Part shown: positions 4,935 through 40,117 of the stretch, piece after piece
Position numbering within the stretch: the stretch's first letter is position 1
How the letters are laid out: each line of letters begins with the position of its first letter
From: a virus
IMG/VR virus record: IMGVR_UViG_3300029624_000180
Span: 1 to 43,571 of that record
Length of the DNA: 43,571 nt
Direction: 5' to 3' (one strand)
Position numbers and translations under genes: made by a program
The notes under the pieces: generated by a model
The model's input: the letters and a program-made list of their open reading frames with translations, nothing else
Database searches by the model: none
What the model was told of the DNA's origin: nothing

Positions 4935-6164
4935 ATGAACGCACGTATTCGTGAGCTGCGCGATGAGCGCCAGAAAGCTGTCGAGGAATCCCGGAAGATT
5001 CTGGATACAGCCAAAGAAGAAAAACGCGATCTCAATGACGAGGAAAACCAGAAATGGGATAGCTTGATGACGCGTCAACAAAATCTTGCCGACCAGATCA
5101 AACGCGAAGAACGCCAGATTGAGCTGGACCGGGAATTTGCCGAACATGAAGCCCGCGCCAAGGATAATGAGCGTGAACGCGAAAAGGGTAAACCCCAATC
5201 CAAAGAAGATCTTCAGATGGAAGGGTTTCGCCACTGGCTGGCCACAGGCCAGTTCCGTAATGATGATGCCGGTCAGGAATTCCGGGCTCTGTCTGCGGAA
5301 ACCGATACGGAAGGCGGATTTACCGTGCCGGAACAGTTTTCCAACAGCCTGATTAAATCCATTGATGATCTGACTTTTATTCGTCAGCGGGCCACAACCA
5401 TTTCTTTAACCAGTGGTGACAGTATCGGGGTTCCGACTCTGGACGCCGATCCTGCAGACGCAGACTGGACGTCTGAGCTTGGCACCGGGTCCGAAGACAG
5501 CGATATGAAGTTCGGCAAACGGGAAATGAAACCCTATCCTCTGGCCAAGCGCATCAAAGTCTCCAGAAAACTGCTTCGGGTTTCCGCCCTGGGCATGGAG
5601 CAACTGATCCGTGACCGACTGGCTTACAAATTCGGTATCACACATGAAAAAGCCTTCCTGACAGGCCACGGCAATAATCAACCTCTGGGTCTGTTTACAG
5701 CCAGTAATGACGGCATTCCGACAAGCCGGGACGTCTCGAGTGGAAACGAAACCACCAACATTACTTTCGATGGTCTGGCCGAAACAAAATACAGCCTGAA
5801 AGCGGCTTACAGAAACCGCGCCGAATGGCTGTTTCACCGGGATGCCGTGAAAAAGGCCGCCAAACTTAAGGACGGCGAAGGCCAGTATTTGTGGCAACCG
5901 TCCAAGTCTGCAGATGAACCAGACTTGCTTTTGGGCCGTCCGCTTCTGGAAAGCGAATATGTGCCGAACACCTTCACAACCGGCCAGTATGTCGGTCTGT
6001 TTGGCGATCTCAGTTATTACTGGATTGCAGACAGTCTGATGATGGATATGCAAAGACTGGTTGAGCTTTATTCTGAAACCAACCAGATCGGCTTTATCGG
6101 CCGCCTGGAATCAGACGGTGCGCCGGTTCTTGCAGAGGCTTTTGCCCGGATCAAGCTGGCTTAA
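4935..6164 (+). CDS. Major capsid protein (HK97 gp5-like)
   Basis: This 409-residue protein has a highly charged, coiled-coil delta domain (about residues 1-100) acting as internal scaffold. A maturation region near FRALSAETDTEGG follows (about 115-127), and then the HK97 fold, including VPEQFSNSLI, the YPLAKRIKVSRKLL strand and the FLTGHGNNQPLGL loop. The protease upstream probably removes the delta domain. A strong site, AAAAGGAGCC, precedes the ATG. The gene is bracketed by hairpins at 4881 and 6175, which may set its mRNA level or stability apart from its neighbours. Confidence 0.95.
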   Translation: MNARIRELRDERQKAVEESRKILDTAKEEKRDLNDEENQKWDSLMTRQQNLADQIKREERQIELDREFAEHEARAKDNEREREKGKPQSKEDLQMEGFRHWLATGQFRNDDAGQEFRALSAETDTEGGFTVPEQFSNSLIKSIDDLTFIRQRATTISLTSGDSIGVPTLDADPADADWTSELGTGSEDSDMKFGKREMKPYPLAKRIKVSRKLLRVSALGMEQLIRDRLAYKFGITHEKAFLTGHGNNQPLGLFTASNDGIPTSRDVSSGNETTNITFDGLAETKYSLKAAYRNRAEWLFHRDAVKKAAKLKDGEGQYLWQPSKSADEPDLLLGRPLLESEYVPNTFTTGQYVGLFGDLSYYWIADSLMMDMQRLVELYSETNQIGFIGRLESDGAPVLAEAFARIKLA

Positions 6165-6229: not shown

Positions 6230-6679
6230 ATGCATAATCTTTCTCAACATGTCGATGTACGGGAAATCGGTGCGCCAGTCGGCGCCGGTTCTTCCATTGA
6301 TAATAACAGCGACCGGATCGATATGTCCGGATATGACGGCGCCCTGTTTATTGCTACTGTCACAGACAGTGTCGCAAACGGCGTAGCCACCCTGACAATC
6401 GAACAGAATGACAGCGATAGCGACAGCGGGATGAGCGCCCTGTCCGGCGCCGTGGCAACGGTCACCTCGGAAGAAAACGATGATCTAAATAATGGAATCA
6501 TGATTTTGGATATTCATCGTCCTAAAAAACGCTACATACAAGCAGTAAGAACATCATCAACACAAAATATTGCTTACGGAAATTTGATAGTTGTTCTCTA
6601 TAAAGGCAAAAAAATGCCACCTTCAAATCACAGTTCTGTTCTTGCATCTACGACAGTAGTCAGCCCGGATGAATCCTAA
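6230..6679 (+). CDS. Conserved phage protein next to the capsid gene, possible head decoration
   Basis: This 149-residue protein has a beta-rich pattern (YDGALFIATVTDSV, ATLTIEQND) and the segment IMILDIHRPKKRYIQAV, which resembles proteins found just after capsid genes in many tailed phages. A ribosome site (GAAAGGAAT) precedes the ATG, and a good terminator follows the gene. The part from about 6490 to 6640 is richer in A and T than the flanking genes, suggesting a mosaic joint inside it. A head decoration or stabilising role is only a guess from position. Confidence 0.7.
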   Translation: MHNLSQHVDVREIGAPVGAGSSIDNNSDRIDMSGYDGALFIATVTDSVANGVATLTIEQNDSDSDSGMSALSGAVATVTSEENDDLNNGIMILDIHRPKKRYIQAVRTSSTQNIAYGNLIVVLYKGKKMPPSNHSSVLASTTVVSPDES

Positions 6680-6735: not shown

Positions 6736-6975
6736 ATGTCAGAAGCGAATACCAAAATCTATAAAGAACAAGGCGGCGATACCATGGCGATTAAGGCCGC
6801 GGACGGGGCTGTCATCAAGGGCCAGGCATCCGCAGGCGGAACACCGGCGCAGGCGGCGGCAATCAGCGATATTACGGTCACCGGCAACTATGGAGATGAT
6901 GACAGTAATATTGAAACGGCCGTTAACGAGATTCTTGCCGCGTTACGAAATGTCGGCATCGTCGCGTCCAGTTAA
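6736..6975 (+). CDS. Head fibre-like small virion protein
   Basis: This 79-residue protein contains a low-complexity Gly/Ala region and the segment AAAISDITVTG, followed by a C-terminal helix NEILAALRNVGIVAS. That pattern of a short flexible region plus 'AISDLT...AINAILAALR...GL' is typical of small head-fibre or spike-associated proteins of alphaproteobacterial phages. A strong site, AAGGAG, precedes 6736; an internal ATG at 6784 is an alternative. It begins the block that encloses the glycan cassette and could be a carrier or target of it (inference). Confidence 0.6.
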   Translation: MSEANTKIYKEQGGDTMAIKAADGAVIKGQASAGGTPAQAAAISDITVTGNYGDDDSNIETAVNEILAALRNVGIVASS

Positions 6976-6986
6976 GGAGATTTATT

Positions 6987-7247
6987 ATGAAAGTTAAACT
7001 AAACAACATTTATGCCGGCGCAAAAGGAACGTTTGTGGCCGGAGAGACCATCGAGGTTGACGATGCGGAAGGCCGTCAACTGATTGACGGCGGCTATGCC
7101 GAGTTCATTGAAGAGCCAAAGGCCGCGCCGAAGAAGGCAAAGACCGCGCCGAAGAAAGAAACGGCAACCGCCGGTCCGGAAGAAACCGCCATGCAGGACC
7201 CGGCAAAAGAAGATAACAGGCAAAAACCAGACAATCAAAAAAAGTAA
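6987..7247 (+). CDS. Small phage head-region protein with Lys/Ala/Pro-rich tail
   Basis: This 86-residue protein starts with a compact beta-type domain (residues 1-40, containing GETIEVDDAEGRQLIDGGYAE), a pattern common in small head-completion-region proteins of phages. It continues as a low-complexity tail rich in Lys, Ala, Pro and Thr with repeated APKKAK/APKKET motifs. It has a good ribosome site (AAGGAG) and ends one base before the first glycan-cassette gene. The function is not recognised. The flexible Thr/Pro-rich tail is the sort of segment that can carry glycans, but that is speculation. Confidence 0.65.
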   Translation: MKVKLNNIYAGAKGTFVAGETIEVDDAEGRQLIDGGYAEFIEEPKAAPKKAKTAPKKETATAGPEETAMQDPAKEDNRQKPDNQKK

Positions 7248-7248
7248 A

Positions 7249-7944
7249 ATGTCGGATCTCTGGTCTGTTCCGCCCCTGTTTGAGGGGCGGACAGTGGCCC
7301 TGATTGCAACAGGTCCCAGTTTAAAACAGTCAGATGTCGATCTGATCCGGTCTGCAGGTCTGCCTGCGGTTGCTATCAATAACGGATTTGAATATGCACC
7401 CTGGGCCGACATGCTCTATGCCTGCGATAATATATGGTGGGATACTTACTGGATGGACGGCGTTCTGGGCGGACCCGGCGCAAGAGATTTTAAAGGTATA
7501 AAAGTTGGTATGGCGCATGGCCGGGATTCATATGGCCGTCATCTTCAAATCGGGGCCTTGCCATGCCCGGATATTCTGAAATTAGGCTTTGGTGGGGATT
7601 TTGGTTATGATCCAAGGCCTGACTATGTCTGCGGCAATAAAAACAGCGGCTGCATGGGGGCACAGATTATCGCCAAAGCCCGTGCCAAAACCATTTTACT
7701 GCTTGGGTGTGACTGCAAAGCCGGACCTGGCGAAAAGCTTCACTGCTTTGGCGATCACCCTTTCAGGGTCGGCCGCAACCCGCCGCCCTTTGATGATTTT
7801 GTCCGGGGATGGAACGAACTGGCCGAAGACCTTTTTGAGATGGGCATCCGGGTCATAAACTGTTCACCGGACAGTGCCGTAACCTGTTTTCCTGTCATGT
7901 CAGTCAGCCAGGCCCTGAAAGAAATTGATGGCGGATCCCAATAA
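7249..7944 (+). CDS. GPSL-type DUF115/GT42-like sugar enzyme, copy 1
   Basis: This 231-residue protein shows the landmarks of the DUF115/MptE-like and sialyltransferase-like fold: a nucleotide-binding GPSL near the N-terminus (ALIATGPSLKQSD), AINNGFEYAPWADML, the core strand ILLLGCDCKAGPGEKLH and a C-terminal VINCSPDSAVTCFP. The frame is open upstream, but the ATG at 7249, right after the previous stop, gives the family N-terminus. It is the first gene of the glycan cassette and overlaps the sulfotransferase by 17 bases. It resembles the protein at 9053-9655. Activated-sugar transfer or glycan initiation is likely; the substrate is unknown. Confidence 0.65.
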   Translation: MSDLWSVPPLFEGRTVALIATGPSLKQSDVDLIRSAGLPAVAINNGFEYAPWADMLYACDNIWWDTYWMDGVLGGPGARDFKGIKVGMAHGRDSYGRHLQIGALPCPDILKLGFGGDFGYDPRPDYVCGNKNSGCMGAQIIAKARAKTILLLGCDCKAGPGEKLHCFGDHPFRVGRNPPPFDDFVRGWNELAEDLFEMGIRVINCSPDSAVTCFPVMSVSQALKEIDGGSQ

Positions 7945-8563
7945 CGTTGTCCTGCATGAGCACAGACTGTGCTATATGGCAGTTCCCAAAGCGGCATCGA
8001 CATCGATCAAAAAGCGGCTGGCGGACTGCACCGGGGTCAAGAGAACCAGTAATCTCAAACATGTTTGTAAAGAAGATGTTGCCAGATACACAGCTAAAAA
8101 CAACTATCTGAGTTTTACAATTATCCGTCATCCTTTCACCCGGCTTGTTTCCGGGTGGATGAACAAGTTTCAAAATGAGGTGGATCCGCCGCCGGATAAA
8201 AAATACAGACCTTACGGCTTTTATCCGTTTATGCCTTTTGATGAATATGCCGGCATAATATGTGATACACCGGACCATCACATGGATGTTCATTTTCGGT
8301 CTCAGTCCTATGATCTGACGAATGACCGGCGGCCGGTTCCGATGATTATCGGCCGTTTTGAACGGATGGAAAAAGACTGGCGCTATATCAGAACCCGTCT
8401 TGTCCAACACAGCCGCTTCGATCCTGGAGAAATTTATCACTACAGGCCATCCAGGGCACAAAGTGTGGTCCAGGATGTGTTGACAAAAGGTATCATTAAA
8501 AAACTGGAAGAACGTTTTCGCAATGATTTTGAAATCTTCGGATACAAGCCTGATAAGTTCTGA
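7928..8563 (+). CDS. Sulfotransferase family 2-like carbohydrate sulfotransferase
   Basis: This 211-residue protein has both PAPS-binding signatures of Golgi-type carbohydrate sulfotransferases. The 5'-phosphosulfate loop is VPKAASTSIKK (residues 19-29), and the 3'-phosphate motif is IIRHPFTRLVSGW (about 65-77). A third segment, MIIGRFERMEKDW, fits the family C-terminal part. The reaction would move sulfate from PAPS to a sugar hydroxyl. A TTG lies one codon upstream, but ATG at 7928 is preferred. It overlaps both neighbours, so the cassette is translated as a unit. Sulfotransferases are unusual inside a phage structural operon. Confidence 0.8.
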   Translation: MADPNNVVLHEHRLCYMAVPKAASTSIKKRLADCTGVKRTSNLKHVCKEDVARYTAKNNYLSFTIIRHPFTRLVSGWMNKFQNEVDPPPDKKYRPYGFYPFMPFDEYAGIICDTPDHHMDVHFRSQSYDLTNDRRPVPMIIGRFERMEKDWRYIRTRLVQHSRFDPGEIYHYRPSRAQSVVQDVLTKGIIKKLEERFRNDFEIFGYKPDKF

Positions 8564-9056
8564 TTATCAGAATGTGCTCCGGCAAAAACATAAACAGGAT
8601 CCGGAGTGGGGGCCGGGCGGAATTATCTGGATCGGACTGATCGTTTTTCTGGCCCGTGAAATAAATGCAAAAAGCATTATCGATTACGGCTGCGGAAAAG
8701 GCGGTAATATTGAGCCTTTGTCAAAGGCCGGGTTTAAGGTGCAGGGATATGATCCGGGTGTAGACAGTTTCAGTTCAAGGCCATCCAGAGCGGAATTAAC
8801 GGTCTGTCTCGATGTCCTGGAGCATGTTGAGCCTGATAAAATAGAAAATGTTCTGGCAGATATAAAATCTTTGTCCGATATATCACTATTTGTTATCTCA
8901 ATGCGCCGGGCAAAGCATAGACTGCCGAACGGGGAGAATGCCCATTTATTAATCCAGAGTCGCGAATGGTGGAGCGAGGCTCTGTCAAGGCACTGGGATA
9001 ATCAGAAAATCATGTCCGGCCGGCAGGACAGCGAACTTCTGGTGTTGTGCTGGTGA
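8523..9056 (+). CDS. Class I SAM-dependent methyltransferase
   Basis: The Rossmann motif I, IIDYGCGKGGN, lies near residues 52-62. It is followed by the acidic strand VQGYDPG and by the post-motif LTVCLDVLEHVEPD typical of small class I methyltransferases acting on small molecules, lipids or sugars. It is 177 residues long from the ATG at 8523, which overlaps the sulfotransferase by 41 bases. Start codons further in, such as GTG at 8574, are possible and would remove the overlap. The stop overlaps the next gene by GTGA. O-methylation of the glycan is inferred from context only. Confidence 0.75.
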   Translation: MILKSSDTSLISSDYQNVLRQKHKQDPEWGPGGIIWIGLIVFLAREINAKSIIDYGCGKGGNIEPLSKAGFKVQGYDPGVDSFSSRPSRAELTVCLDVLEHVEPDKIENVLADIKSLSDISLFVISMRRAKHRLPNGENAHLLIQSREWWSEALSRHWDNQKIMSGRQDSELLVLCW

Positions 9057-9655
9057 GCCGCTATTTTATCCTGGCTTCCGGGCCGTCACTGGATGGATTT
9101 GATTATACACGCCTGGCCGGTAAAAACGTTATTGCAATCAATGATGCCGCCTTTTACCAGTTTGCGGCCGCTCCTATTCTTATCAGCACGGATCCACACT
9201 GGTGGCAAAGCGTGGCGCGCGGAGACAGGAAGCTTACGCAATGGAAAGGTGATACGCTGATCTGCACCGAACAGGATGCAGCGGCCGGCATCTATGATCC
9301 GCGTATGATCCGGAAAAACAGAAAACGTATATTTGGACTAAGCGACGATCCGGCCGTTCTGCATGGTATATTTACAGGGGTTCATGCCGCAATTAATGAA
9401 GCAGTTCACCGGCGGGCAACAGAAATTGTACTACTGGGCGTAGATCTAAAATGTGGTGATGAAGGCGAGCGTAAATATACCTATGGCGGATCCACGACCT
9501 GCAGAACACCAAGACAATTTAAGAACATGATCCGCGCCCTTGAAAGTTGCGCGCCTGTCTTAAAGAAAAAAAAGATTAATGTTATCAATGCCAGCCCTGA
9601 CAGCGCCCTGACCTGCTGGCGCAGATATTCAAGCGATCAGGTGATATATGAATAA
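9053..9655 (+). CDS. GPSL-type DUF115/GT42-like sugar enzyme, copy 2
   Basis: This 200-residue protein shares the ordered motifs of the 7249-7944 protein: ILASGPSLDGFD, VIAINDAAF, a WW pair (HWW), VLLGVDLKCG and VINASPDSALTCW. The overall identity is low, so the two are diverged family members rather than a recent copy. The chosen GTG at 9053 overlaps the methyltransferase stop by GTGA; the frame extends two codons upstream to GTG 9047. It probably works with copy 1 on a shared nucleotide-sugar or lipid-linked substrate, but neither donor nor acceptor can be read from the sequence. Confidence 0.62.
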   Translation: MSRYFILASGPSLDGFDYTRLAGKNVIAINDAAFYQFAAAPILISTDPHWWQSVARGDRKLTQWKGDTLICTEQDAAAGIYDPRMIRKNRKRIFGLSDDPAVLHGIFTGVHAAINEAVHRRATEIVLLGVDLKCGDEGERKYTYGGSTTCRTPRQFKNMIRALESCAPVLKKKKINVINASPDSALTCWRRYSSDQVIYE

Positions 9656-10358
9656 GCTGCAAATGGGCTGCATGTACTGGCAGGCCAATCCGCGTTTTGT
9701 GAGCAATAAACACAAGCCTGAACATGTTAATATTTTAAAAAACAGTGTCCGCCGAAATCTTCGAATTCCGCACGATTTCTTTTGCATTACCGATACGCCG
9801 GACGGCCTGGATGATGACATCCGGATCATTCCGTTATGGAACGATCTGGCCGAACAAGGCTATTGCATGCGCAGACTGAGAGCTTTTTCAGAAGAGATGA
9901 AAGAGGTTATCGGGCCCCGCTTCGCCTGGCTGGATCTGGACGTGGTTATTGTTGACGATATAACGCCGATATTCGATACAGATGCCGATTTCAAAATCAG
10001 CGGGGTTGAGCTGAGGGAGCAACCTTATAACGGATCCATCGTGTTAATGGATGCCGGTGCCAGGGCTCAGGTTTACCATGACTTTGATCGGGATTTTTAT
10101 GAAAGGGTCAAGGCGGAAAAGAATTACGGCGGTTCGGACCAGGCCTGGTATGCCGTCTGCCTGGGAGAGCGTGAACAAACCTGGCAGAAGGTCGACGGCA
10201 TTTACAATTACCGTGAACATATTGCCCCTGCGCCGCCTCTGGGCACCGGCGGCGGATTGCCAAAAAACGCGCGCATTGTGGTTTTTAACGGGAGATTTTC
10301 CCCTGAATGGAAAGATATCCAGGAGAAAAGCCCCTGGATCAAGGAACACTGGAGATAA
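9648..10358 (+). CDS. GT-A fold glycosyltransferase with DxD motif
   Basis: This 236-residue protein has a clear metal and nucleotide-sugar motif DLD at residues 96-98 inside RFAWLDLDVVIVDD. An N-terminal strand FFCITDTPDG and a downstream GVELREQPYNGSIVLMDAG region, with NYGGSDQAWY as a likely acceptor or C-terminal metal site, match GT8/GT32-type enzymes. It would transfer a sugar from a nucleotide sugar. It overlaps the previous gene by 8 bases and is followed 3 bases later by the spike base gene, which ties the cassette to the virion operon. Confidence 0.8.
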   Translation: MNKLQMGCMYWQANPRFVSNKHKPEHVNILKNSVRRNLRIPHDFFCITDTPDGLDDDIRIIPLWNDLAEQGYCMRRLRAFSEEMKEVIGPRFAWLDLDVVIVDDITPIFDTDADFKISGVELREQPYNGSIVLMDAGARAQVYHDFDRDFYERVKAEKNYGGSDQAWYAVCLGEREQTWQKVDGIYNYREHIAPAPPLGTGGGLPKNARIVVFNGRFSPEWKDIQEKSPWIKEHWR

Positions 10359-10361
10359 ATT

Positions 10362-10649
10362 ATGACAGACGCATATGACAGTCATTCGATGCCCATAGAC
10401 GGGCCGATTGAAAAAACATTTTCCATTACGCCGGGCGGAGATGATCTGACCCAGGTCATAAGGGGTCTTTATGTAGGCACTTCAGGCCATGTTGTTCTTG
10501 TTGATCTGAACGATAATGAAATTGAGCTAAAAAACCTTGCCGCCGGCGTATGGCATCCTATCCGATGCAAAAAAGTTTTGGCGACGGCAACTGCTCTTGG
10601 GTCACCGGCACCCACAACCACGGCATTAAACATCGTTGGCGGTTACTAA
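10362..10649 (+). CDS. Head spike base protein, RcGTA Rcc01079-like
   Basis: This 95-residue protein reads SITPGGDDL followed by IRGLYVGTSGHVVLVDL and IRCKKVLATATAL, closely following the small beta-sandwich proteins named after Rcc01079 of the Rhodobacter gene transfer agent. There the protein forms the base of head spikes whose fibre binds host capsule. Here it lies directly after the glycan cassette and before the head-tail connector genes. No obvious fibre partner follows it, so the two small proteins at 6736-7247 or the modified glycan itself might take that place (inference). Confidence 0.72.
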   Translation: MTDAYDSHSMPIDGPIEKTFSITPGGDDLTQVIRGLYVGTSGHVVLVDLNDNEIELKNLAAGVWHPIRCKKVLATATALGSPAPTTTALNIVGGY

Positions 10650-10655
10650 AATCAG

Positions 10656-11243
10656 ATGACTTTAAGTGTTGTCACAGAGGCTGCAGCCGAGGTTTTAACA
10701 CAGGCTGAAGCCAAAGATCATCTGCGTGAAACCGGCAATGCCGAAGATACGTTTATTGACGGTCTGATCAAGGCCGCGACACGTTATGCCGAGAATTATA
10801 CAGGGTCTGTCTTTGTTACCCGGACACTGAAATGGACAATCGATGATTTTCCGAGAAATTCGGAAACGGCCCTCATTTTGCCAAGCGGTCCGGTAGAGTC
10901 GATTACGAGTATTGTCTATACAGATACGGACGGGATCAGCCAGACCTGGGACTCAGGGAAGTACCTTCTGGACAAGAATTTCTACCGGCCCCGGATCATG
11001 CCGGCTTATAACGAAAGCTGGCCGTCCGATGTCCGGGATCAGATGAACGCTGTCGAGATTACATTCTCTGCCGGTTACGATACTGACGGTGATGATCTTC
11101 CGGAAGATATCAAACATGCGATTAAACTGATTATCGGTCACTGGTACGAAAACCGGCAGGCCGTTGTCATGGGATCGAATCTGCAACAGGTCCCCATGGC
11201 GGCGACAAGTCTTCTGGAACCTTATAAAAGATACGGATTTTAA
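10656..11243 (+). CDS. Head-tail connector protein (phiE125 gp8 / gp6-like)
   Basis: This 195-residue protein begins with the family helix LTQAEAKDHLRE, followed by FIDGLIKAATRYAENYTG and the beta segment LPSGPVESITSIVYTDTDG. Its C-terminus IKHAIKLIIGHWYENRQA is the classic ending of the phiE125 gp8/HK97 gp6 connector family. It assembles below the portal as the adaptor ring. It sits 6 bases after the spike base gene and 2 bases before the next connector gene. Confidence 0.88.
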   Translation: MTLSVVTEAAAEVLTQAEAKDHLRETGNAEDTFIDGLIKAATRYAENYTGSVFVTRTLKWTIDDFPRNSETALILPSGPVESITSIVYTDTDGISQTWDSGKYLLDKNFYRPRIMPAYNESWPSDVRDQMNAVEITFSAGYDTDGDDLPEDIKHAIKLIIGHWYENRQAVVMGSNLQQVPMAATSLLEPYKRYGF

Positions 11244-12813: not shown

Positions 12814-13128
12814 ATGTTTCGGCTGGCTCTGGCTCTGGGCATGACGGTCAGAGAGCTAAAATCCAGACTGACTTACAATGAATTCACAGAGTGGATGGCT
12901 TATTACCAACTGGAACCTTTCGGTGAGTTCCGTTCAGATCTGAGAAACGGCGCACTGTGTTCTCTGATTGCCAATATCAAGCGAGATCCGAAAAGACGGT
13001 CTTCTCCATATGAGCCAAAGGATTTTATGCCGTTTCTGGATGACCCCGAGCTTGAAGATGAAGGTGATGGTGATCAGCTTGACAGATTATTCAGAAATCT
13101 AGGGTTTAAGGTTGAAGAGCAGGAATAA
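12814..13128 (+). CDS. Tail assembly chaperone, downstream frame (gpT-like)
   Basis: This frame encodes 104 residues from an ATG that has no ribosome binding site and sits against the hairpin, so it is most likely expressed only as the C-terminal part of a -1 frameshift fusion, joined at 12787. It reads MTVRELKSRLTYNEFTEWMAYY, typical of the T part of GT-type chaperones, including the LE-PFGEFRSDLR segment. Its partner is the tape measure protein. The upstream in-frame stop at 12775 confines the shift to the 12778-12787 region, in agreement with the slippery site. Confidence 0.8.
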   Translation: MFRLALALGMTVRELKSRLTYNEFTEWMAYYQLEPFGEFRSDLRNGALCSLIANIKRDPKRRSSPYEPKDFMPFLDDPELEDEGDGDQLDRLFRNLGFKVEEQE

Positions 13129-13133
13129 TATGC

Positions 13134-13616
13134 ATGCCCAGAGAAACCCAGTTTAAAATTACCGGCGGTCCGGAAATACAAAAAGCTTTAAAAGAGCTTC
13201 CAAAAAAATTACAGCGAAGAGCCCTTGTTCATGCTTTCAGGACAGGTGCGAAGATTGTCAAGGATGACGCTGCATTACGGGCATTAAAGGTATCTCCAGA
13301 CTTCGCGTCCAGCCTCGTGGTTGCAAGACCAAATAAGAAACGCCGGGCCAATAATGAAGTGGTCGTTGTTATAGCACATAAAAGATCACATTCACGTCTT
13401 GCCCATATTTTTGAATTTGGGACAGCTAACAGATATCAGAAAAACGGGCGTTTTACAGGTCGCATCATAGCTACACCATATCTCCGCCCCGCTCTTGATG
13501 CCAGGTCAAACGAAGCAATTCAGAGCATTGCTTCCATCTTAAAAGAAAATGTTGAAATTATCGCCCGGCAACTATCAGCCGGCCAAAAAGTCAGTTTAAG
13601 AAGGTCAAAAAGATAA
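13134..13616 (+). CDS. HK97 gp10-like tail / head-tail joining protein
   Basis: This 160-residue protein matches HK97 gp10-type proteins: KITGGPEIQKALKELPKKLQ, RRALVHAFRTGAKIVKDDA, then HIFEFGTANRYQ and the C-terminal TPYLRPALDARSNEAI. Such proteins act in head-tail joining or tail completion. Usually the gene lies before the tail tube gene; here it is between the chaperone and the tape measure, which is an unusual order. The stop overlaps the tape measure start. Confidence 0.82.
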   Translation: MPRETQFKITGGPEIQKALKELPKKLQRRALVHAFRTGAKIVKDDAALRALKVSPDFASSLVVARPNKKRRANNEVVVVIAHKRSHSRLAHIFEFGTANRYQKNGRFTGRIIATPYLRPALDARSNEAIQSIASILKENVEIIARQLSAGQKVSLRRSKR

Positions 13617-23317: not shown

Positions 23318-23902
23318 ATGATTATACAGCCGACAACCTTAATCGGCGGATACATGCGATGCGGTACGTCTATGATGTGCTGGGCTTTGCGTGAAGGCGG
23401 TATGGATGTAGCTTTTGCGGAAGAGAGAGAAAAATTAAACCGCAGGACCAGTGACGCTCAGTACAAAACCAATAAGGGCGGATTGTATGAGTTGACGCAA
23501 AAAGATTATATGGAACCGGGCTTTCCAAAGCAGTTTGAAGGTAAGGTAATCAAGGTTCTCAATATCGGTATAGCTCATGTCTGTCCGGGTAATTATAACT
23601 GCATTATCATGCGCCGGGACTGGGAAGAGGTCCGTCAGTCTCTTAACGCTGCAAAACTTAGAAAGATGCCTTGCGGTGAAGAAGAGTTTCAACACCGAAT
23701 GGATATTATTGTCGGCATAATGCAGCAACGTAAGGATGTCAGAGTAAAAGAGGTCTGGTATCGTGATGTTGTTGATGATCCGCTTGGTAAGTTCACAGAA
23801 CTGGCGGAATGGGGGCTTCCAATAGACCCTGAAAAAGCCGCTTCTGTGGTTGATCCGAGGCTTTGCAGGTCAAGAAAAGAGATATTGGTTCCGGGCGCAT
23901 GA
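23318..23902 (+). CDS. Sulfotransferase-like protein (second PAPS-type enzyme)
   Basis: This 194-residue protein begins with GGYMRCGTSMMCWALREGG (about residues 10-28), matching the P-loop-like 5'-phosphosulfate motif of sulfotransferases. A later strand, CIIMRRDWEEVRQSL (about 95-109), matches the 3'-phosphate motif with its Arg and Ser. It is compact and differs clearly from the 7928-8563 enzyme. It overlaps the next virion gene by ATGA, so sulfation is again coupled to production of an appendage. The substrate is unknown; a kinase-like P-loop is the alternative. Confidence 0.62.
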   Translation: MIIQPTTLIGGYMRCGTSMMCWALREGGMDVAFAEEREKLNRRTSDAQYKTNKGGLYELTQKDYMEPGFPKQFEGKVIKVLNIGIAHVCPGNYNCIIMRRDWEEVRQSLNAAKLRKMPCGEEEFQHRMDIIVGIMQQRKDVRVKEVWYRDVVDDPLGKFTELAEWGLPIDPEKAASVVDPRLCRSRKEILVPGA

Positions 23903-26361: not shown

Positions 26362-27897
26362 ATGGGACTCGGAATTGGTCTTGATTACGCAAAAAATTTT
26401 ATAAAAAGATTTGAACGGTTCTTTAAGGGGACAGAGACAGCCCTGTCATCGTTCAATGAAGATAATGAATCCGTAAGTGATGTGACCTGGTTCAACCATG
26501 TGGAAGGATGTTTTGTTCTGCGTTATAAAGCGCCGGCGGCTTTTTCAAATTACGATTATCTGATGGTGGCCCATGATGGAAGCTCATCTGACACTGTCGG
26601 TATGCGCGTAGATTCCAACGGCAATCTAAGAGGATTTGTCCGGGCAGGATCAGTAAACCAGCACAGTTCTCCAAACAGTGATGTTCAAATTGTAGAACAG
26701 ACTCAGGTGGCCGGCTTTGCCTGGAAGTCCGGCGAAGCTTATGTTCTTTCCGGTGCCATGAAGGATGAACGTACGTACTCCGGAGATCCTGCAGGCATGA
26801 ATGAGCTTCATTTTGCGGCCAGAAACGGCAATAATGACGCCTCTAATCTTACCGTATATGACGCAGAAGTGGGGGCTGTTTATCAGGATCCCTATTCCCT
26901 CTCCGCCCTAATGTACGAACCTGATGATATTCTTGTCGGCGGCGGCGGTCAGTCTTTAATGGTAGGCTATTTTGATTCACAGGAATCCAACGCGGAGTCT
27001 GGTAAGCAGACATTAAGATCCACGATAGGCGCAGAAATCGGTTCAAATACAGTTGTTTTTGCCAATGGGGCAACGGGCGGAAGTGCCGCAGCAAAGACGT
27101 CTGACGATACCAATTACTGGTGGGATAATGCGGCCAGTAAGCGTGGCACAGCGCTAAAAACATTTTATTCAAATTTCAGGGAAGTCGGCTTTCGCCCGAA
27201 CATCATTTTATGGTCTCAGGGCGAACAGGATTCCGCCAATATTCCGTCTAACACAACACCGGCAGAATATAAACAGGCGTTATTATCGATCTTTCAGGAC
27301 ATCCGCGCAGAATATGGCGACATTCCCATTGTCATTCAAAAGATCGGCCGCCGTACAACGGGTTACAGTAATACGGGCGGATATCAGGCTGTGCGTGATG
27401 TTCAGAACGAATTGATCGCCGAATATGACTGGATCCATGATGGGGCAGAAACCTATGATCTTGGTCTTTATACCGGAGACAGCATGAATGTACACCTGAC
27501 TGACACCGCATATGATGCGGCGGCGCAGAGAAATGCGCGAATTATCCTGGATCTTCTGGGGTACAATCTGATGGGGTCGGTTCATGGACCTGTCATCACT
27601 GACGCTGTCCGGGATGGTACGACGGTGACAGTCACAATAAGCCATGATGCCGGCAGTGATTTTACCCCCACATCCGCGATTACCGGATTTGTATTTCATG
27701 ATGATGGAGCTTCGATCACGATAAATTCGGCAGTGCGGACGGATGCGACGACGATTACCCTAACACTCGATTCATTACCAAACGGTGTGGAAGTTCTATA
27801 TTATATTTATGATAATGCAGATGTTAATATATCGAATATCGTTAAGGATAACTCTCCCCAGGCGTTACCTTTAAGACCGGCCAGAATTGCGCTTTAA
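26362..27897 (+). CDS. Tail spike with SGNH/sialate O-acetylesterase-like domain
   Basis: This 511-residue protein has an SGNH hydrolase core. Block I is GGGGQSLMVGYF with Ser198 as the likely nucleophile. WSQGEQDS (284-291) matches the QGExD signature of SASA/DUF303 acetylesterases, and NVHLTD (376-381) supplies the catalytic His378. The N-terminal 180 residues look like a beta-sandwich attachment or lectin domain, and the C-terminal 110 residues are another beta domain. The likely activity is removal of O-acetyl groups from host surface polysaccharide. It is the last gene of the virion operon; its stop abuts a convergent gene. Confidence 0.8.
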   Translation: MGLGIGLDYAKNFIKRFERFFKGTETALSSFNEDNESVSDVTWFNHVEGCFVLRYKAPAAFSNYDYLMVAHDGSSSDTVGMRVDSNGNLRGFVRAGSVNQHSSPNSDVQIVEQTQVAGFAWKSGEAYVLSGAMKDERTYSGDPAGMNELHFAARNGNNDASNLTVYDAEVGAVYQDPYSLSALMYEPDDILVGGGGQSLMVGYFDSQESNAESGKQTLRSTIGAEIGSNTVVFANGATGGSAAAKTSDDTNYWWDNAASKRGTALKTFYSNFREVGFRPNIILWSQGEQDSANIPSNTTPAEYKQALLSIFQDIRAEYGDIPIVIQKIGRRTTGYSNTGGYQAVRDVQNELIAEYDWIHDGAETYDLGLYTGDSMNVHLTDTAYDAAAQRNARIILDLLGYNLMGSVHGPVITDAVRDGTTVTVTISHDAGSDFTPTSAITGFVFHDDGASITINSAVRTDATTITLTLDSLPNGVEVLYYIYDNADVNISNIVKDNSPQALPLRPARIAL

Positions 27898-39068: not shown

Positions 39069-39497
39069 ATGACATTTCTAAACGGTCTGAAAGAGTACGC
39101 GCCGAAACCGGTGATGCCGGTGAATAAAAACGGCGGGCTTTTTTTTAAATCCACAGCCGGGTTTATCTTCTGGATGTGCCGGGTGCAGGGCCTGACAGAG
39201 CAAGGCCGCCCGCGAGACGTTACCCGGACAGATACCCGGATTATCAAATCTTTTATTCAGCTTATGGGCCGCCTGCATGACCGCGGGGATCTGTTGACGG
39301 ATCATCTTCTGATTCTGCGCAAGTACGGCGCGCTGCAAAGGCCCCCAAATCCCTGTCTGCCGCCCGAGGAAATGGCCTGGACAATCTGGTCGGACGCGCT
39401 GCAGGTCCTGTACCCCTATCTGGAAAAGGCCGGTTATATCCGGCCGCGTGAACACAGGCCCTGTTTGCGCGCCATGAGAACAAGGGGGCATGCATGA
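39069..39497 (+). CDS. Hypothetical early protein
   Basis: This 142-residue protein has a good site (GTGAGGGGACAT). It contains FKSTAGFIFWMCRVQG, IIKSFIQLMGRLHDRG and an Arg-rich end (RPREHRPCLRAMRTRGHA). It is located between the early protein and the MT-A70 methylase, which it overlaps by ATGA. I do not recognise a family. Confidence 0.55.
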   Translation: MTFLNGLKEYAPKPVMPVNKNGGLFFKSTAGFIFWMCRVQGLTEQGRPRDVTRTDTRIIKSFIQLMGRLHDRGDLLTDHLLILRKYGALQRPPNPCLPPEEMAWTIWSDALQVLYPYLEKAGYIRPREHRPCLRAMRTRGHA

Positions 39498-40117
39498 AAA
39501 TTCCATCCGGCCAGTATGGCGTCATTTATGCCGATCCGCCCTGGCGTTACAAAATGTACGGCGATGGCGGATATCAAAAAAGTCCGCAGGCGCATTATCC
39601 GTGCATGAGCCATAAAGATCTTCTGGATCTGCGCGATCAGGTTCTGTTCGCAGCCGCCCCGGATTCGGTCCTGATTATGTGGACGCTGTTTTCCGCCGAT
39701 AGTGAGCGCGATTTTCTGCTTGAGGCGATTGAGCTGATGACTGCCTGGGGATTTACCCGCAAGACCGGCGGTCCGTGGATCAAGCTGGCCGGGAACGGCA
39801 ATCCGGCCATGGGCACCGGCTATATCTTACGCGGCGCGGCGGAACTGTTCCTGATCGGGACGCATGGTAACCCCAGAATTAAAAATCGCGGCACCCGCAA
39901 CCTGCTTTTAACCGGAGACTGGCCGCAAAAACCGGAAGACATCAGCGAGATTATCGTCAATACCCTGCGCCGTGAGCATTCGCGCAAACCCGATGAAATG
40001 ATCCCGCTGATCGAAAATCTGTTTGAAGGACCGTATCTGGAACTGTTCGGCCGGACGCAGCGGCCGGGATGGACCGTCGCCGGTAATGAAACCGATAAAT
40101 TTGGAGACAGCGCATGA
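39494..40117 (+). CDS. MT-A70-like adenine methyltransferase
   Basis: This 207-residue protein has the catalytic DPPW at residues 14-17 (GVIYADPPWRYKMYG), then a central LIMWTLFSA strand, and ELFLIGTHGNPRIKNRGTRN, all typical of the MT-A70 group. In phages these are usually DNA N6-adenine methylases that protect the genome from restriction or mark replication. It is expressed early from P_R and overlaps both neighbours. No partner nuclease is present, so it is a solitary methylase. Confidence 0.85.
   Translation: MKIPSGQYGVIYADPPWRYKMYGDGGYQKSPQAHYPCMSHKDLLDLRDQVLFAAAPDSVLIMWTLFSADSERDFLLEAIELMTAWGFTRKTGGPWIKLAGNGNPAMGTGYILRGAAELFLIGTHGNPRIKNRGTRNLLLTGDWPQKPEDISEIIVNTLRREHSRKPDEMIPLIENLFEGPYLELFGRTQRPGWTVAGNETDKFGDSA

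Follow-up and report, generated by a model that had tools for sequence, protein, structure and literature searches.

A predicted glycan-building gene cassette with a sulfotransferase in the head operon of an uncultivated HK97-type siphovirus

The stretch of DNA analyzed here, called the window, is the whole 43,571-base IMG/VR virus record IMGVR_UViG_3300029624_000180, which belongs to an uncultivated HK97-type siphovirus. Its genes run in the order terminase, portal, protease, major capsid protein (MCP), three small genes, a cassette of five sugar-modifying enzymes, head spike base and connector, followed by further head-tail and tail genes. The cassette is the subject of this report. Its five open reading frames (ORFs) are all present at positions 7249-10358 on the same strand, and successive ORFs overlap by 17, 41, 10 and 8 nucleotides. 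Only 1 nucleotide separates the cassette from the gene upstream and 3 nucleotides from the gene downstream. Given this tight packing, the cassette most likely belongs to the late head transcript. In the gap between the MCP gene and the small gene that follows it there are a GC-rich hairpin and a promoter-like site, but such sites occur in the region at chance counts. The interval from MCP to connector takes up about 10% of the record. Elsewhere in the window lie an integrase gene and a repressor-like gene, signs of a possibly temperate phage.

The second gene of the cassette encodes a sulfotransferase (ST) that scores 94.5 bits against Pfam Sulfotransfer_2 (PF03567; cut-off 22) and aligns to positions 4-252 of the 252-position profile. 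It retains an intact 5'-phosphosulfate loop, VPKAASTSIKKRL, and an intact 3'-phosphate motif, RHPFTRLVS, and residues R67, R72 and S75 are invariant in an alignment of nine phage sequences. The start of the gene is most likely at 7928. The third gene product, a methyltransferase (MT), passes the cut-off of Methyltransf_23 (PF13489) with an E-value of 5e-9.

Searching the PDB by sequence with the ST, the first enzyme (GPSL-A) and the last enzyme, a glycosyltransferase (GT), gave no useful matches, and structures were therefore predicted for GPSL-A and the GT. The AlphaFold model of GPSL-A has a pLDDT of 88.5. Its best PDB match in Foldseek is the Campylobacter GT42 sialyltransferase CstII (1ro7; E 2.3e-4, probability 1.00, template modeling score about 0.49). 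GPSL-A and the fourth enzyme, GPSL-B, are 29% identical to each other and belong to phrog_4603, a family labelled "alpha-2;3-sialyltransferase". As neither reached a Pfam sialyltransferase family at E <= 1, they are named GT42-like and not GT42. Membership of the MptE-like/DUF115 family (PF01973) was considered and rejected, the scores of 12.8 and 15.8 bits being below the cut-off of 34.6. The GT model (pLDDT 91.6) resembles the GT8 folds of glycogenin, LgtC and LARGE1 (E about 1e-7), and its DLD (DxD) motif is conserved among 26 sequences. The protein has no Pfam match, which places it by sequence outside the curated GT8 family; its own family, phrog_1962, is labelled glycosyltransferase. An earlier note, made from the sequence of the window, had described five overlapping genes inside a virion operon, encoding two GPSL-type enzymes, an ST of the type that uses 3'-phosphoadenosine 5'-phosphosulfate (PAPS), a class I MT and a DxD GT. 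The profile and fold tests bear these identities out, and the cassette lies in the interval between the MCP and connector genes (Table 1).

Table 1. Genes between the major capsid protein and the connector in the window
Feature	Position	Strand	Evidence
HK97-fold MCP, upstream boundary of the cassette region	4935..6164	+	TIGR01554, 1.7e-92
Small protein directly after MCP	6230..6679	+	phrog_5707 (unknown function), 1e-8
Small protein, no assigned function	6736..6975	+	phrog_12102, 1.2e-7
DUF7302 protein, charged Pro/Ala/Lys-rich tail	6987..7247	+	PF23976, 2.4e-6, above cut-off; phrog_2616, 3.1e-9
GPSL-A, GT42-like (sialyltransferase-fold) transferase	7249..7944	+	phrog_4603, 1.4e-28; Foldseek CstII
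PAPS-dependent carbohydrate ST	7928..8563	+	PF03567, 1.5e-26, 94.5 bits
Class I S-adenosylmethionine-dependent MT	8523..9056	+	PF13489, 5e-9, above cut-off; phrog_24759, 8.6e-23
GPSL-B, second GT42-like transferase	9047..9655	+	phrog_4603, 3.7e-18
GT8-fold (GT-A) GT with DxD motif	9648..10358	+	phrog_1962, 6.5e-14
Head spike base, Rcc01079 family	10362..10649	+	NF048002, 1.3e-17; PDB 6tb9
Head-tail connector (gp6-like), downstream boundary	10656..11243	+	TIGR02215, 6.7e-37

Relatives of the first GPSL gene were sought in IMG/VR with a four-sequence alignment; an eight-sequence alignment was too divergent for searching, and scans with single proteins returned almost nothing. The scan gave 578 relatives, and the analysis went on with the best 80. 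It was ranked by likeness to the window protein, which may favor similar gene contexts. Neighboring genes were labelled with home-made hidden Markov models, the one for the MT being built with domain trimming. A virion gene adjoins the GPSL gene in 78 of these best 80 loci. Clustering them at 70% identity left 51 clusters, 31 of which have at least 3 kb on both sides; virion genes flank the GPSL gene on both sides in 24 of the 31 and on at least one side in 30. Five records (L035, L041, L078, L089 and L098) share a near-identical cassette plan, MCP-GPSL-(GT-D+MT fusion)-GPSL-GT2-GT8-like-connector, where the fusion of a GT to an MT points to one shared glycan.

The same arrangement is found in described phages. 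The GPSL gene lies between MCP and connector in Pseudomonas phage D3 (orf7) and in Psp6, and in the head-tail operon of PAJU2 (ORF010). In all three an MT gene (phrog_6564) accompanies it in the same operon; these cassettes are smaller than that of the window and lack the ST, and their GPSL proteins are annotated as hypothetical or, in PAJU2, as "structural protein". In Tetraselmis viridis virus S20 (NC_020840), homologues of both GPSL proteins, the MT and the GT (37% identity over 99% for the GT) fill the interval between MCP and Hc1 (head closure). An ST was not found in S20, which has GT-D, GT2 and FkbM genes in addition. Among 18 relatives in bacterial genomes, many lie in prophage-like head operons (L104, L108, L110, L111, L113, L115, L118 and L120). 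L121, an outlier, and a few others have no phage labels, and no recognizable lipopolysaccharide (LPS) cluster was seen among the labelled bacterial-genome relatives. The earlier note would have given up its reading had such genes occurred always with host LPS or capsule genes and never with virion genes; the opposite was found, since most GPSL relatives adjoin virion genes. Judged by gene order, the placement of the cassette in the head operon is not accidental.

The ST is a rare member of such cassettes, PF03567 being found in one of 50 GPSL-bearing records (L122, on the same contig as L123). There, GPSL, GT8-like and MT genes are followed by GPSL-ST, several other genes and the connector. 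Relatives of this ST occur in L124 and L125. The full record of L124, designated L129, has the order terL-portal-protease-MCP-small-small-GPSL-...-GT-GT-MT-kinase-GPSL-ST, and L125 has GPSL-ST-connector-Hc1-neck-tail. The STs of this lineage pass the Pfam cut-off with 59-61 bits. Identity between the window and L129 is only 24% (ST and MCP) to 29% (GPSL), indicating a plan shared at long distance and not a recent transfer. In a P22-like lineage (L008, L018 and L019) the ST directly follows MCP. CBW1004C-Prop1 (MZ188970) likewise has a PF03567 ST directly after MCP in a P22-like head operon, but as a single enzyme, with no GPSL or GT beside it. The presence of an ST among virion genes, which the earlier note had reported for the window, is thus repeated elsewhere: by their gene orders, at least two other, distantly related phage lineages carry an ST in the head operon. 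The ratio of nonsynonymous to synonymous substitution rates (dN/dS) of the ST and GPSL genes between L124 and L125 is about 0.07, a rough figure as dS is near saturation, and indicates strong purifying selection. A comparison of L123 with L125 gives 65% identity for the ST, higher than the 47% of the connector.

The cassette is probably a phage-encoded glycan-building module that is co-expressed with the head genes and attaches sugars to at least one virion protein of the phage itself. A glycan on a virion protein is favored by late head expression, by the soluble nature of the enzymes, none of which has a membrane-type hydrophobic segment (highest 19-residue hydropathy mean 1.53), by the GT-MT fusion and by the conserved placement. 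The GT8-fold enzyme and the two GT42-like transferases would add sugars from host nucleotide sugars, at least one of them perhaps sialic-acid-like (nonulosonic). The MT and the ST would then cap the sugar chain with methyl and sulfate, and the glycan as a whole would be assembled in the cytoplasm, on virion proteins. The phage might gain a shield, more stable particles or a means of adsorbing to charged host surfaces. We infer from the genes the virion protein as acceptor, the choice of sugars and the benefit alike. It is also possible, though somewhat less likely than not, that several tailed-phage lineages independently encode head-operon STs which sulfate a sialic-acid-like virion glycan and so give the particles a self-made charged sugar coat.

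MCP and the small proteins that follow it are candidate acceptors, as is the spike base. The small protein directly after MCP had been omitted from the genes listed in the earlier note. Its C-terminus, MPPSNHSSVLASTTVVSPDES, is rich in Ser and Thr (20% S+T), and on this composition it is a possible decoration protein and glycan acceptor. The two other small proteins had been taken for head-surface proteins, an assignment that their matches do not bear out: one belongs to a phrog without assigned function, and the other is a DUF7302 protein with weak connector-type matches. The call of a Rcc01079-type spike base was correct, the protein scoring 63.8 bits against NF048002 (equivalog cut-off 28) and matching PDB entry 6tb9 (Rcc01079) at 1.7e-4. 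A partner resembling the RcGTA spike fibre (Rcc01080) was not identified in the window. The small proteins after MCP show no sequence likeness between the window and L129.

Several observations weigh against a virion acceptor. No single virion protein was seen to co-occur strictly with the cassette, MCP types differ between the phages, and a Ser/Thr-rich C-terminus that might serve as a shared acceptor tail was not seen among the MCPs compared. The spike-base gene is likewise missing from all 46 GPSL-bearing IMG/VR records and from S20. The virion glycan of these phages is a prediction from genes, and position in a late operon is by itself compatible with a target on the host surface. In some phages the GPSL gene lies elsewhere in the late region, between the lysis and terminase genes in Citrobacter phage phiNP and between the tail and lysis genes in CcrColossus. 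Two phage contigs (L017 and L020) carry long glycan clusters with several STs and no labelled virion gene nearby. In L129, the reverse strand between the first GPSL gene and the GT genes encodes apparent signal-peptide proteins, one of 925 amino acids, that are hard to square with a virion role and could point to a role at the cell surface.

Two side observations concern these phages. The GPSL gene of phiNP (L009, 5001-5588) is unannotated in the deposited record and stands beside an annotated "alpha-2,3-sialyltransferase". The glycan cluster of L020, judged by eye, also has nucleotide-sugar-type genes.

The main alternative is that the cassette, acting in lysogens or at a late stage of infection, alters a glycan of the host surface (LPS, capsule or S-layer glycan), for instance so that released virions or competing phages no longer adsorb, with the head operon serving merely as the carrier transcript. 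The signs of a temperate life style in the window would suit it, as would the long glycan clusters, the signal-peptide proteins of L129 and the GPSL genes adjoining lysis genes. So would the record L002, where an ST occurs with a kinase for adenosine 5'-phosphosulfate (APS; 12971-13405, 63.1 bits, cut-off 21.1), a GT25 enzyme and an FkbM methyltransferase. The APS kinase of L002 suggests that some phages may raise the PAPS supply themselves; the record gave no match to a capsid or portal family. Conversion genes usually stand next to the integrase. The position of the cassette, by contrast, is kept between MCP or portal and connector in many unrelated phages, and not beside the integrase. The proteins of O-antigen conversion systems have membrane segments, which those of the window cassette lack, and the cassette includes no polymerase and no membrane flippase or membrane-bound transferase of the kind found in the gtrABC/oac serotype-conversion cassettes. 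The many genome relatives in prophage head operons, with none of those labelled lying in a recognizable LPS cluster, also speak against a host-surface target, leaving L121 and the few other unlabelled relatives aside. A change of the host surface is on balance unlikely, although it is the strongest competitor of virion glycosylation.

A special case of virion glycosylation would place the glycan specifically on the Rcc01079-type head spike. The RcGTA head spike, with Rcc01079 as base and Rcc01080 as fibre, binds the host capsule (PMC7296036, PMC10218006). RcGTA and the window share the spike-base family, and the available text of these papers describes no glycan-building cassette for the RcGTA spike. 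The spike-base gene begins 3 nucleotides after the cassette, and the contig L122/L123 has a fibre-adaptor gene (Gp77 family) at the matching place before the connector. The spike base is nevertheless unlikely to be a general acceptor, being present in the window and in none of the 46 other GPSL-bearing records, and its relatives in RcapNL and L004 have no cassette gene in the stretches examined. Restriction of the glycan to the spike is therefore improbable. Of the earlier proposal of a sulfated, methylated glycan on the head or on a spike protein, the enzymes and the late head operon stand, with a location that proves to be conserved in many phages, and the specific tie to the spike is not supported.

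That the enzymes decorate phage DNA bases, yielding glycosylated or sulfated hypermodified DNA, is very improbable. STs and GTs are named among the parts of DNA-modification systems predicted for phages (Iyer 2013, via the available text of PMC10829341), but the cassette sits among head and not replication genes, and its folds match GT42 and GT8 sugar transferases and not DNA glucosyltransferases. A scan of window proteins, covering some but not all of the small ORFs, turned up neither a base hydroxymethylase nor a TET/JBP-like gene, and a single DNA-modifying gene was found, an MT-A70 homologue (39494-40117).

Other genes of the window touch on related functions. On visual inspection, the protein encoded at 23318-23902, in the tail-fibre region, shows ST-like motifs towards both ends, GYMRCGTSMM at the N-terminal and YRDVVDDP at the C-terminal one. 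It was rejected as a second ST, with 13 bits against Pfam Sulfotransfer_3 (cut-off 27) and no relatives found. A tail-type protein (26362-27897) passes the cut-off of PF03629, the sialate O-acetylesterase (SASA) domain, which may enable the phage to remove acetyl groups from a sialic-acid-like glycan as well. The product of the gene at 19785-21047 matches PF18454, the N-terminal domain of the major tropism determinant. In the ORFs of the window no reverse transcriptase stood out, and no search was aimed at a diversity-generating element.

Phage enzymes are known to glycosylate capsid and tail-tube proteins in mycobacteriophages (Freeman 2023, as described in the available parts of PMC12619734 and PMC10877033). 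In those phages the phage-encoded GTs act on virion proteins, whereas for the window such an action is predicted from the GT genes in its virion module. The set of the window is larger, combining GT42-like and GT8-like folds with an MT and an ST, and belongs to phages other than those. The VP4 spike protein of HRPV-1, an archaeal pleomorphic virus, carries a sulfated N-glycan ending in legionaminic acid (Kandiba 2012, described in PMC6137143). According to the accessible part of the latter source, that glycan is predicted to be made by host enzymes and not to be virus-encoded, while the window phage carries its own ST. Viral STs are listed as auxiliary metabolic genes (PMC8290583, PMC10829341, in the portions available). 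In the literature found, of which coverage was partial, phage STs appear only as auxiliary metabolic genes or as cited DNA-modification candidates; no report of a virion-modifying phage ST was found, which on such coverage is weak evidence. What is new here is a predicted phage-encoded sulfation step tied to the virion module, virion glycosylation itself being already known.

If the cassette does glycosylate virions, virion glycosylation would be widespread in tailed phages and not a mycobacteriophage curiosity, and sulfation would be a new phage-encoded chemistry on virions. It would bear on two labels given to common unexplained phage genes, the "alpha-2,3-sialyltransferase" of phrog_4603 and the "glycosyltransferase" of phrog_1962. 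It would also matter for the adhesion of phages to charged surfaces, or their escape from them, and for the recognition of phages by antibodies.

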